From assembly GCA_016125215.1 (NCBI GenBank), contig WGMF01000058.1, positions 1 through 33,615 on the forward strand: a stretch of 33,615 bases of DNA, given 5' to 3'. The translations under genes were made by a program, and so were the position numbers. The stretch comes from Phycisphaera sp. Lineage in GTDB: Bacteria > Planctomycetota > Phycisphaerae > Phycisphaerales > Phycisphaeraceae. Below the pieces are notes generated by a model. That model did no database searches. It saw nothing but the letters and a program-made list of their open reading frames with translations, and was not told the origin of the DNA. Below are positions 3,351 through 23,196 of the stretch, piece by piece. Within the stretch, counting starts at the first letter, position 1. Every line of letters starts with the position of its first letter.

Positions 3351-3513
3351 TAGCCGCAGATGAACGCAGATGGGGCAGAGAATGGATGATGTCAGGAAGC
3401 AGGCCATTGATACTTGATGGTCGCAGAGAGTGCGTGGTGGCAATGGTCTCTGCCGCCAACTCCGAACTCCTCTCCTGCTCCTATCCGCGTTTATCTGCGT
3501 TCATTTGCGGCTA
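3351..3513. repeat. Modular inverted-repeat element A (non-coding)
   Basis: The left arm starts TAGC and then has 10-bp units CGCAGATGAA (3355-3364) and CGCAGATGGG (3365-3374). The right arm, read on the minus strand, is TAGC followed by CGCAAATGAA (3500-3509), CGCAGATAAA (3490-3499) and CGCGGATAGG (3480-3489). The outer 21 bases of the arms match at 20 positions. Inner modules are AATGGATGATGTCAG (3381-3395) on the left and, on the minus strand, two 7-bp units GGAGTTC/GGAGTTG on the right. The centre has no credible gene. The element fills the gap between the isomerase gene and the 160-aa gene, ending 9 bases short of the latter's stop codon. Confidence 0.85.
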
Positions 3514-4005: not shown

Positions 4006-4241
4006 GAGTAGAGTAGTGAGTTCTCGCGAAGCTCGCGAAGAGCGCGAAGATATAAATGGGTCTAGGGTCTGGGATCTGGGGGCTGATATTTCAGTTGACA
4101 CTTGTTTTCAAGTTGCATTATTTACACACGCCGTACCTTTGCCATACAAGCAATCTAAACAGCACCGCATTGATCAGCCCTTAGACCTCAGACCCTCTCG
4201 TATTACTTCGCGTCCTTCGCGAGCTTCGCGAGACTCTACTC
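4006..4241. repeat. Modular inverted-repeat element D
   Basis: The outer tip GAGTAGAGT (4006-4014) is mirrored by ACTCTACTC (4233-4241). Next come three 9-bp units on the left, CGCGAAGCT, CGCGAAGAG and CGCGAAGAT (4025-4051), and three on the minus strand on the right, CGCGAAGCT, CGCGAAGGA and CGCGAAGTA (4230 down to 4204). Inside these are 7-bp units: GGTCTAG, GGTCTGG, GATCTGG, GGGCTGA from about 4059 on the plus strand and GGTCTGA, GGTCTAA, GGGCTGA from about 4194 on the minus strand. The element begins directly after the start codon boundary of the 160-aa gene and contains the argF stop codon (4236-4238). Confidence 0.85.
4083..4111 (-). promoter_or_regulatory. Possible promoter inside element D
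   Basis: On the minus strand TTGAAA (4111-4106) and TATCAG (4088-4083) are separated by 17 bases. They match the sigma-70 consensus at 5 of 6 and 4 of 6 positions. This could start transcription of the 160-aa gene, with a leader that includes one repeat arm. There is no support beyond the match. Confidence 0.35.
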
Positions 4242-20453: not shown

Positions 20454-20463
20454 TCCGATACAG

Positions 20464-20914
20464 AAACCACAGATTTCGCAGATGACGCAGATTCCGAGCC
20501 AGATTGAAGAAAAGTCAAAAGATGTCCGTGACGAACGGACTTACGCCATTATCGGCGCAGCAATGGAAGTGCATCGAGAGCTTGGACCGGGGTTTCTTGA
20601 TTTGGTGTATCACGAAGCCTTGGCTATCGAGTTTGAAGAAAGAGGGATTCCTTATGTGCACGAATCATCGCTGGAAATCCGGTACAAAGGTCGCAGACTG
20701 AATCAGACTTATCGAGCCGACTTCGTCTGTTTTGGTTCGGTTCTGGTTGAAATCAAGGTGGTACCTAAACTCACCGGGCTCGAATCCGCCCAACTGCTCA
20801 ATTACCTCAAAGCCTCAAGCATCCAGACAGGATTGCTCTTAACTTTCAACAACGACAGTCTGCAATACGATCGATTCATTCTCTCTATATCTGCGTCATC
20901 TGCGCAATCTGCGG
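20464..20914. mobile_element. Modular inverted-repeat element C carrying a GxxExxY gene
   Basis: Left arm: AAC followed by 9-bp units CACAGATTT (20468-20476), CGCAGATGA (20477-20485), CGCAGATTC (20486-20494). Right arm, minus strand: AAC, CGCAGATTG (20911-20903), CGCAGATGA (20902-20894), CGCAGATAT (20893-20885). Three units on each side in strict 9-bp register is the same architecture as elements B and D. Between the arms lies one gene in place of the non-coding centre of the other elements. The gene is more AT-rich than dxr and rseP on either side. No target-site duplication was evident by eye. Confidence 0.75.
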
Positions 20915-20937
20915 TTGCTCCGGATAGCGCCCCGTAA
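20482..20937 (+). CDS. GxxExxY / PDDEXK_3 family nuclease-like protein
   Basis: This 151-aa protein belongs to the GxxExxY family (PF13366-like), thought to have a PD-(D/E)XK nuclease fold. Visible are IIGAAMEVHRELGPG, the eponymous motif as G37-F-L-D40-L-V-Y43 (Asp in place of the usual Glu), RYKGRRLNQTYRADF with Asp80, and VLVEIK with Glu90-x-Lys92, the expected metal-site residues, then the LTGLESAQLLNYLK segment typical of the family. The ATG lies inside the second 9-bp arm unit (CGCAG-ATG-A), giving MTQI, and the last residues SASSAQSAV are translated from the opposite arm, so the protein ends are made by the repeat. No biochemical role is established for the family. A homing or repeat-cutting role is inference. 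Confidence 0.88.
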   Translation: MTQIPSQIEEKSKDVRDERTYAIIGAAMEVHRELGPGFLDLVYHEALAIEFEERGIPYVHESSLEIRYKGRRLNQTYRADFVCFGSVLVEIKVVPKLTGLESAQLLNYLKASSIQTGLLLTFNNDSLQYDRFILSISASSAQSAVAPDSAP

Positions 20938-20953
20938 ACCATAAAGGCCCACC

Positions 20954-23014
20954 ATGCCCTTCCAACTCCCCTCGCTTACCGGCACGAGTTCGTTCCTGAT
21001 CTTTCTGCTCGGGTTTGGGTTTCTCATCTTCATCCACGAGCTGGGGCACTTTGTGGTTGCCAAGCTTGTGGGCATCAAGGTGACACAGTTTGCCATCGGG
21101 TTTGGGCACAGCGTACTGTCGTGGCGCAAGGGGCTGGGGTTCCGCGCAGGCTCGACGGAAGCCGAGTATGAAAAACGCATCGAGGATCACCTTAGAAAAC
21201 AGCACAACCTCGCGGAAGGTCAGGTGCTGCCGCAGTGGTCCACCACGGACAGAGACCGAGCCGTCGCCTCGCTGGGCCTGGGTGAGACCGAGTACCGACT
21301 GAACTGGATGCCCCTGGGCGGGTACGTCAAGATGCTCGGGCAGGAGGACCTCGACCCGACGGCGCGCAGTGACGACCCGCGCTCGTTCAACACCAAGCCC
21401 GTCTGGGCACGAGCCTGCGTCATCAGCGCCGGCGTCGTCATGAACCTGATCTTCGCGGTGATCTTTTTCATCGCCTGCTTCCTGCACGGCGTCGAGTTTC
21501 CGCCCGCTGTGGTCGGCGCGGTGGCACCGGGTTCACCCGCCGCGACGACCTTCGCCGTGGGCCACGACGGCGACGAGGCCTACCGTGGCCTGCTCCCCGG
21601 CGACCGCGTGCTCAAGATCAACGACGAACGCATCCCCGACTTCATGGGCATTGCCACAAGCACCGTGCTCGGCTCGGCAAGCTCGGACCGTGTCCTCAAA
21701 GTCCAGCGCGAGGGCGAAGACGCGCCGCTGACTTACAAGTTGTTACCCATGAAGGACCCCGACACCGGGCTGCTGTCGCTGGGCATCGCACCCGGTCGCA
21801 CGCTCACCCTGGCCGCCATCCGCGAGGAAAGCACGCTCTACAAACAGGGCGTCCGGGCCGACATGACCGTCACCGCCGTCGACGGCAAGCCCGTATCGAC
21901 CTACGGTGAATACGCCCGTGCGATCACGTCTGCCCACGGCAACGAAGTGCAAGTCGAGTTCGACCACGGCAAGGTCACCGTCCCGCTGTCAGCCGACATG
22001 GTCCTGCCCGACACCGGCGACTACCCCAACCTGTTGGGCCTGGTCCCCGCCACGCGCATCGGCAAGGTGATGAAAGACTCCCCCGCCCAGAAAGCCGGCG
22101 TGCAAACCGACGACCTGGTGGCCGAGGTCAACGGCCAGGCCTGGCCCACCGCGACCCAGCTCCAGAAAGCCGTCAAAGACGCGGGCACCGATCCGGTCTC
22201 GCTCACCGTCGAGCGAAAGGGCGAACTCGTCACACTCGAACCCGTAGCCCCGCACAACGGGTTGCTCGGTGTCTCGCTGGGTGTGGAGACCGACCAGGTG
22301 ATCATCGGCCAGTACCTGTCCGACACGCCCGCCGCGGCCCTCAACCTCACCGGCGGCTCTCGCATCCTGGCCATCGACGGCACAGACGTGGCCGACTGGT
22401 CGCAGATGGAACGCGCCCTGCAACAGGCGTGTTCCAAACTCACCGACGGCGGAAAGGTCGGTGTCCGTTTCGAGTTGGCAGTGAAAGACCGCCCGGTCAT
22501 GCAAGAGGACCTCCCCATCACCGCGGATCAATCCCGGTTGATGGCCAAGGCGGCCTGGGTCGAACCGCTGGGCTGGATGTTCGGCGACCTGCGCGAACCG
22601 GTCAAAGCCGGCAACCCTTATGACGCGCTGGTGATCGGTCTGCAGAAGACCCACCACTTCATGCTGCAGACCTACCAGACTATTCTGCGTATCGCGCAGG
22701 GTTCGGTCCCGCTCAAGGGCGTCTCCGGGCCGGTCGGCATCATCCACGCGGGCACCACCGTCACCTCACGCGGCTGGCCCTACCTCTGCTTCTTTCTCGG
22801 GCTGATCTCGGTCAATCTCGTCGTGCTCAACTTCCTCCCGATCCCGATCGTCGACGGCGGGCTGATGGTCTTCCTCATCATCGAAAAAATCAAGGGTTCG
22901 CCCGTCAACGCGAAAATCCAGAACGCCGCGTCACTCGTCGGCATCGCCCTGATCGGCAGCCTCGTGCTGTTCGTGACCTACCACGACATCACGCGCCTGT
23001 TCACCGGAGGTTAA
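20954..23014 (+). CDS. rseP: Site-2 protease RseP with four PDZ-like domains
   Basis: This 686-aa membrane zinc protease cuts transmembrane segments, for example anti-sigma factors in envelope stress. HELGH is at residues 28-32 in the first membrane helix, and the second active-site motif is NFLPIPIVDGG near the C-terminus (usual LDG replaced by VDG). GGYVKMLGQED follows the first helix. E. coli RseP has about 450 residues. The extra length comes from an insertion of about 50 residues before NWMPLGGYVK and from four PDZ-like units (about residues 180-260, 268-345, 355-425 and 430-525), where two are usual. AAGG 7 bases before ATG supports the start. It lies 16 bases after the GxxExxY gene. 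The domain count is by eye. Confidence 0.93.
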   Translation: MPFQLPSLTGTSSFLIFLLGFGFLIFIHELGHFVVAKLVGIKVTQFAIGFGHSVLSWRKGLGFRAGSTEAEYEKRIEDHLRKQHNLAEGQVLPQWSTTDRDRAVASLGLGETEYRLNWMPLGGYVKMLGQEDLDPTARSDDPRSFNTKPVWARACVISAGVVMNLIFAVIFFIACFLHGVEFPPAVVGAVAPGSPAATTFAVGHDGDEAYRGLLPGDRVLKINDERIPDFMGIATSTVLGSASSDRVLKVQREGEDAPLTYKLLPMKDPDTGLLSLGIAPGRTLTLAAIREESTLYKQGVRADMTVTAVDGKPVSTYGEYARAITSAHGNEVQVEFDHGKVTVPLSADMVLPDTGDYPNLLGLVPATRIGKVMKDSPAQKAGVQTDDLVAEVNGQAWPTATQLQKAVKDAGTDPVSLTVERKGELVTLEPVAPHNGLLGVSLGVETDQVIIGQYLSDTPAAALNLTGGSRILAIDGTDVADWSQMERALQQACSKLTDGGKVGVRFELAVKDRPVMQEDLPITADQSRLMAKAAWVEPLGWMFGDLREPVKAGNPYDALVIGLQKTHHFMLQTYQTILRIAQGSVPLKGVSGPVGIIHAGTTVTSRGWPYLCFFLGLISVNLVVLNFLPIPIVDGGLMVFLIIEKIKGSPVNAKIQNAASLVGIALIGSLVLFVTYHDITRLFTGG

Positions 23015-23021
23015 CACCCCA

Positions 23022-23192
23022 TTAGCCCCGGGCTTTGCCCGGGGATGAATCGGTGGATCGACTAACGGATGGATTGACAGATCGATTGGCGGATGGATTG
23101 GCGGTTTGGTAGCGGCATTGTCCCGGGAATTGCCCGGGGGATGGGTGAATCACGTGATATGCGCAGTGCCCCCGGGCGGAGCCCGGGGCTAA
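23022..23192. repeat. GC-rich inverted-repeat element G
   Basis: Both ends carry the same hairpin word in opposite orientation: TTAGCCCCGGGC...GCCCGGGG at 23022-23044 and its complement at 23170-23192, matching at 21 of 23 positions. A third similar hairpin is at 23120-23140. Between the first and third lies a 12-bp tandem (GGATGGATTGAC, AGATCGATTGGC, GGATGGATTGGC, about 23067-23102). There is no T tract, so it is not a standard terminator. It fills the gap after rseP, and its right end touches the tig promoter. Confidence 0.75.
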
Positions 23193-23196
23193 CGGA

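Follow-up and report, generated by a model that had tools for sequence, protein, structure and literature searches.

A GxxExxY nuclease gene framed by inverted word arrays points to a probable family of small mobile elements

Why should a small nuclease gene lie between dxr and rseP with both of its ends running into the arms of an inverted repeat? The gene in question was met in a contig of Phycisphaera sp. (GCA_016125215.1, WGMF01000058.1), of which the whole 33,615-nt stretch that was analysed is called the window here. An initial annotation had read the gene as an insertion at this site and had taken three gene-less elements of the window (its A, B and D) for dependent copies of it. The features on which the question turns are the following.

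3351..3513, no strand: gene-less element with AGCC ends and 10-nt units, of the class of the L001 gene and not of the window gene
4011..4241, no strand: gene-less element with TCTCGCGAAG ends, of the class of the L005 gene
14541..14778, no strand: gene-less element with AGCC ends and 10-nt CGCGAATGAA units, of the class of the L001 gene
19266-20453: dxr
20457..20921, plus strand: whole element of the window copy, bounded by the outer ends GATACAGAAACC and GGTTGCTCC, which are common to a 107-bp gene-less element; the exact ends are the probable ones
20462..20492, no strand: 5' arm with three CRCAGAT units spaced at 9 nt, from an inverted-repeat search
20482..20937, plus strand: GxxExxY / PDDEXK_3 nuclease gene, 151 aa, with its start codon in the 5' arm and reading through the 3' arm
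20889..20919, no strand: 3' arm, inverted ATCTGCG units, from an inverted-repeat search
20954-23014: rseP

The two arms of the window copy form an inverted repeat of 31 nt that is 90% complementary in the repeat search. As had been read from the sequence, the start codon at 20482 lies inside an arm unit, CGCAGATGA, and it is the sole in-frame ATG ahead of the GxxExxY domain. The residues SASSAQSAV, described as the last of the protein, are indeed read from the 3' arm, but they stand near the end and not at the very end, as APDSAP comes after them. A search of this genome found five GxxExxY genes, one of them interrupted by TAG, and all five lie between inverted arms of about three tandem units, which differ from gene to gene (CGCAGATGAA, CGCAGAGGA, CGCCAAGGA, CGCAGATGA in the window, and CGCGAAGGA). 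That gene and arms form one unit is supported.

The position between dxr and rseP is peculiar to this genome. With dxr found in 40 of 41 genomes, 30 dxr loci were taken, that of this genome included, and rseP lies within the fetched flank (no more than 1500 nt from the dxr locus) in 27 of them. A GxxExxY gene separates the two in this genome only, and the remaining 26 of the 27 sites are without one; the gene is thus not a fixed member of a dxr-rseP cluster, which is in keeping with the proposed insertion. In genome G002 (L045) a gene-less element, of the class with 10-nt units, lies in the dxr-rseP gap. Another inverted repeat, of a different class (TTAGCCCCGGGCTTTGCCCGGGG), lies 3' of rseP at window positions 23019-23044 and 23170-23195.

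The window protein matches TIGR04256 with E 6.9e-40 and 136 bits (curated cut-off 35) and PF13366 with E 1.2e-36 and 126.1 bits (curated cut-off 22); at E 0.001 the latter is the sole Pfam domain found in it, and the Y1 HUH domain PF01797 was not found. In an alignment of 88 sequences, G37, Y43 and D80 are invariant and E40, E90 and K92 are at least 90% conserved, so that the Asp80 and Glu90-x-Lys92 of a PD-(D/E)XK site, which had been recognised in the window protein, are kept among its relatives. Q104 and Y108 are conserved in the same alignment and make up a QxxxY motif, which we take to be a mark of the RecB/Cas4 type. A structure model built from the 88 sequences (pLDDT 87.5) has Cas4 SSO0001 (4ic1) as its best fold match (Foldseek E 8.9e-5, TMq 0.51; VIA Z 10.2 but rmsd 8.0), followed by LHK-Exo and lambda exonuclease, with a Holliday-junction resolvase and AddAB lower and tRNA-splicing endonucleases among the weaker matches. 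The best matches of this model are DNA nucleases, and the protein would resemble nucleases of the Cas4, RecB and lambda-exonuclease type in its fold and in its conserved D, ExK and QxxxY residues. It differs from the Cas4-type nucleases in its size (151 aa, against 202 residues in the SSO0001 structure) and in being lodged between repeat arms. A sequence search of the PDB at E 1 gave no match, nor did PADLOC and PHROGs at E 0.01 (three proteins each). In three homologous pairs of genes dN/dS is 0.07, 0.10 and 0.08, at dS values of 1.25-1.90 that are near saturation; purifying selection on GxxExxY genes at fixed sites could alternatively reflect a benefit to the host.

How general, then, are the arms? 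TIGR04256 is present in 37 of 61 relatives and in 138 of 294 sampled genomes of the phylum, with a patchy distribution. At an alignment score of at least 28 within 250-nt flanks, inverted arms are found at 77 of 90 order-level GxxExxY copies, 65 of them with two or more CRCNRAK units in each arm. The same holds for 69 of 97 copies (59 with CRCNRAK units) in a wider sample that takes in the phylum and 80 named loci from many phyla, picked by similarity to eight queries; the armed copies include Bacteroidota, Verrucomicrobiota, Chloroflexota, Cyanobacteria and Archaea. Rows with a short flank (L152, L075) or with an ambiguous match position in cut loci (L234, L245, L251, L253, L255) were left out, as were a place in G050 below the cut-off and a 108-nt piece of G060. 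Arms were scored in none of 80 shifted flanks and at one of 30 dxr genes, and GxxExxY genes thus generally come with flanking arrays. Most arms are arrays of a CRCNRAG/T word with unit spacings of 9, 8 or 10 nt (204, 171 and 67 cases), and in 51 of 145 elements the first in-frame ATG falls within the 5' arm, while in 44 more it comes no more than 12 nt after that arm.

Copies below the arm score number 28 of 97 in the wider sample and 13 of 90 at order level; the latter comprise seven low-scoring genes (L138, L140, L142-L145 and L147; 81-102 bits), three copies that keep one arm (L069, L116, L150) and one with weak arms (L136), among others. Without the seven the count would be 77/83, but since they were set apart post hoc, after their lack of arms was known, 77/90 is the honest order-level count. 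Four of these armless genes (L142, L144, L145, L147) have flanks conserved in four species of one genus and are perhaps domesticated. Matches to the GxxExxY protein of L066 also occur in eight plasmid records.

Whether the arms belong to the element or to the genome in which it resides can be asked of the protein tree, which holds 133 proteins of the 147 armed elements (nine without a clear word type and five short or stop-rich rows were left out). On this tree, which is limited by a short alignment with 66 of 129 inner branches open and by rows of one genus that are not independent, the arm core type changes 52 times, against 72.1 ± 2.1 when shuffled, and AT- versus AG-type words change twice, against 15.3 ± 0.8 (129 rows, the ATGAA and AGGAA types being left out); in neither case was any of 300 shuffles as low. 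For the order-level relatives alone the core type changes 29 times, against 42.0 ± 1.5, and the genome of residence gives no signal (57 changes against 56.5 shuffled). By eye, one group of the tree (L005, L122, L127, L256, L090, L119) is set apart by an outer end that reads CTC in place of ACC. The arms thus belong to the element, their type following the protein clade and not the host genome. An origin of the arms from the local genome was rejected: arm similarity is 0.262 in same-genome pairs and 0.252 in different-genome pairs, rising with protein identity. In this comparison, and in that of array counts by gene type below, two loci (L089, L091) were taken in the reverse orientation, which gave one false 100% pair among the arm similarities; the tree has them corrected. 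Recent gene duplication is not seen, because copies within one genome differ as much as copies from different genomes. At one site whose flanks are 88% alike (L112/L121), the two species differ in the word, CGAAG against mostly CAGAG, and they do so in both arms together. Compensatory change between the arms found no support as a general rule: for the 107-bp element, 26 aligned rows (25 distinct, as L316 and L337 are one copy) show no covariation of the spacers. The element family is real and general, and its arms are type-specific.

The same words recur far outside the genes. A pattern for two CGCAGAT-type units, CGCAGATN{0,6}CGCAGA, has 302 matches in the 4.04-Mb genome, the reversed control pattern has none, and CGCAGAT-type arrays exceed chance in this genome. 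Gene-less copies thus exist, as had been proposed, but the three elements of the window are not copies of the window gene's element: they match the elements of the L001 and L005 genes elsewhere in the genome, and the window gene's own class has AACC ends and 9-nt units. Among the sampled loci of this genome, AGCC ends occur with a 10-nt period in 23 cases and with a 9-nt period in one, and AACC and ATCC ends with a 9-nt period in 57 and 20; these are the combinations of the L001 gene (AGCC, 10-nt) and of the window gene (9-nt). The 107-bp gene-less element is present at at least 40 places in this genome (40 of 112 candidates scored). It has GATACAGAAACC in common with the window element at one end, and its L263 copy also has GGTTGCTCC at the other. 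Seven of its copies (L311-L317) have some 40 nt of flank in common on both sides and may therefore have multiplied inside a larger repeat. On contigs C16, C42 and C44 of G000, matches to the 107-bp element start at base 1, so the repeat seems to break the assembly. The loops of several gene-less elements (L272, L279, L280) start with arrays of another word type, which we read as nesting.

Across 61 genomes, the abundance of arrays goes with the type of gene present, in counts that take in the genes' own few matches. CAGAT arrays have a median of 176 in the seven genomes with a CAGAT-type gene, 5 in the 23 with another GxxExxY gene and 3 in the 31 with none (p 2e-4, 3e-5); the corresponding medians for CAGAG are 35 (19 genomes), 13 (11) and 2 (31), with p 0.024 and 2e-8. 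For CCAAG, a word also common in coding DNA, with control-pattern counts of up to 17 a strand, they are 58 (9), 20 (21) and 16 (31), with p 0.009 and 7e-4. Exceptions, in which no gene of the type was found, are G006 (143 CAGAT arrays), G046 (188 CAGAG) and G015 (150 CCAAG); G008 has 120 CAGAT arrays and a GxxExxY gene whose arms mix CAGAT and AGGAT. From these type-matched arrays and from the protein tree, which lend it statistical support, we infer that the protein may act on the arms.

Filled and unfilled versions of the same site were compared across relatives at three places (700 nt, read by eye). Between two genes that are presumably groEL and dnaJ, the element is present in G030 and G034 and absent from G025 and G038, of the same genus, and from G054. 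At the second site it is present in G030 and G034, with a short gap in G038 and unrelated DNA in G025; at the third it is present in G056 and G036, with a short gap in G028, unrelated DNA in G060 and, in G032, a different GxxExxY element with CCAAG-type arms. Sites without the element would fit gain or loss alike. Among species of a single genus, one intergenic gap is occupied by two different GxxExxY elements with different arm words (L282/L289 and L283). At L149 and L151 only parts of the gene are left between the arms, as in deletion derivatives. The outer ends of 92 elements read ACC...GGT, with TTTA/TAAA outside, and the best direct repeats around these ends, whose exact positions are uncertain, measure 1.51 nt, against 1.68 nt when pairs are shuffled. 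At two homologous sites the element is more similar than the flanking DNA (L070/L075, 97% against 83%; L246/L249, 94% against 83%), with high identity extending some 45-60 nt into the flank, and at three it is less similar (79% against 90-93%, 75% against 88-89%, 74% against 84-86%).

The orientation of the copies is strongly biased where they carry a gene. With a codon model trained on window genes, applied to 76 gene-bearing elements, 72 of 73 resolved copies point the same way as their upstream gene and 63 of 71 the same way as their downstream gene; a cruder method applied to 140 elements gives 58/60 and 50/56. The 107-bp gene-less copies are without such bias, 11 of 21 being co-directional upstream and 8 of 21 downstream (22 copies, from 30 fetched less three with short flanks and five duplicates); orientation by stop-free frames was uninformative for them, and the codon model was used instead. 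Insertion therefore seems to be free of orientation, and copies with a gene seem to be retained where transcription reaches them.

The arrangement recalls a known system with a different enzyme. One paper (PMC3733652) describes REPtrons and TIRtrons, in which a RAYT gene, encoding a Y1 HUH tyrosine transposase, has REP or TIR repeats on either side, the gene-less copies being REPINs. The likeness lies in one small enzyme gene whose flanking inverted repeats also occur in many gene-less copies, in intergenic location and in several unrelated repeat types per genome. The differences are that GxxExxY is a PD-(D/E)XK nuclease with a predicted Cas4/lambda-exonuclease-like fold, and not an HUH transposase, and that its arms are tandem CRCNRAG/T arrays where theirs are REP palindromes. 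GTAG-tagged REP palindromes were not found at the GxxExxY elements, whose outer ends are ACC...GGT. By analogy, the arrangement may work like RAYT-REPIN. The window itself holds a RAYT-like arrangement, an ORF at 931-1611 on the minus strand with a weak Y1_Tnp (IS200-like) match (E 1.8e-5) and a different long inverted repeat at 862-909 and 1520-1567; elsewhere the Y1 genes of L385, L389 and L390 have inverted repeats on both sides that are of the AAAAGGTGTCAGGAACCTTTT type or related to it. With insertion sequences and MITEs the elements have in common inverted terminal repeats, short gene-less copies with the ends of the gene-bearing copy, and internal-deletion forms; unlike them, they gave no detectable target-site duplication, and the one gene that they carry encodes a nuclease in which no known transposase domain is present. 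The four-helix-bundle genes of 23S_rRNA_IVP (PF05635), found in 28 of 41 genomes, are likewise small genes between inverted tandem arms in 21 of the 30 tested, but the protein is unrelated and the arm units are others, with CRCNRAK units at 1 of the 30. By eye, many arms at these loci (L341-L370) have a period near 7 nt.

Several other accounts of the arms have to be weighed. They might be mobilised by another enzyme, such as a Y1 (IS200/RAYT) transposase, with the nuclease gene as cargo or squatter. Genes are far outnumbered by gene-less arrays, the four-helix-bundle genes lie in comparable arms, and Y1_Tnp occurs in 49 of 61 relatives with counts that correlate with those of the arrays (Spearman 0.38, 0.38, 0.27), so a helper role of Y1 is possible. 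However, CRCNRAK-unit arms surround one of 19 Y1 genes tested, from more than 150 places listed, most having other terminal repeats; arm type tracks the GxxExxY tree; and in a rank regression the GxxExxY count retains its effect for each of the three words (t 2.14, 6.40, 2.41), the Y1 effect being smaller for two of the three (t 2.46, 2.03, 1.46). We consider it unlikely that the gene is a mere passenger. Slightly more doubtful still is a homing route, in which the nuclease would cut the element-free allele or site and the gene would owe most of its spread to repair templated by the filled copy; the arms would aid repair or be traces of the target. The identity reaching into the flanks at L070/L075 and L246/L249 and the gap filled by two different elements in one genus would suit such a route, but elements are less alike than their flanks at the three other sites, they occupy many unrelated sites, and the gene-less copies need ectopic movement.

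A role at the RNA level appears very improbable. The arms would then be mRNA hairpins bound or cut by the protein in self-regulation, and the gene-less copies would be RNA targets with no part in mobility. Such a role could explain why the first ATG so often lies in or just after the 5' arm and why gene-bearing copies are oriented so as to be transcribed, and tRNA-splicing endonucleases do appear among the weaker fold matches. Against it stand the better matches to DNA nucleases, unit spacers in the aligned 107-bp copies that are neither complementary nor covarying, 107-bp copies in any orientation, convergent gene gaps included, and the lack of any Rfam match at gathering score from eight sources.

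We propose as the likely explanation a family of small mobile elements in which cognate inverted word arrays surround one GxxExxY nuclease gene and which are spread by host replication or repair. In each element a single GxxExxY gene would be enclosed by two inverted arrays, each with some three copies of a CRCNRAG/T word at 8-10 nt, and the arrays would serve as the element's cognate ends. The nuclease would most likely recognise the words and cut the DNA at or in the arms. Host replication or repair, the probable route, would copy or move into intergenic DNA either the element itself or a gene-less derivative that keeps its ends, without target-site duplication. Copies with the gene would last only where a gene upstream of them, running in the same direction, transcribes them. 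The element-free sites, the deletion derivatives and the dN/dS values of 0.07-0.10 agree with a mobile element that has a cognate nuclease. A wider proposal, to which we give even chances, is that these elements are a separate class, present in bacteria as well as archaea, that combines one Cas4-like nuclease with inverted word arrays and in which nuclease clade and word would form a recognition code and gene-less copies would amplify by word type; the four-helix-bundle (23S_rRNA_IVP) proteins with their other inverted tandem arms may be a sister class.

A literature search on GxxExxY, PF13366/TIGR04256 and the arm strings found no paper on the function of GxxExxY genes or on such an element, and the family is undescribed in the searches made; the name appears in one case of another program's cas4 gene reported as GxxExxY and in one gene table. 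The genes are frequent, with 138 of the 294 genomes sampled from the phylum carrying one, and their arms offer a concrete, testable substrate. If the proposal is true, an abundant class of intergenic palindromic repeats would be explained, and GxxExxY proteins would make up a natural set of small nucleases, each paired with a short recognition word.
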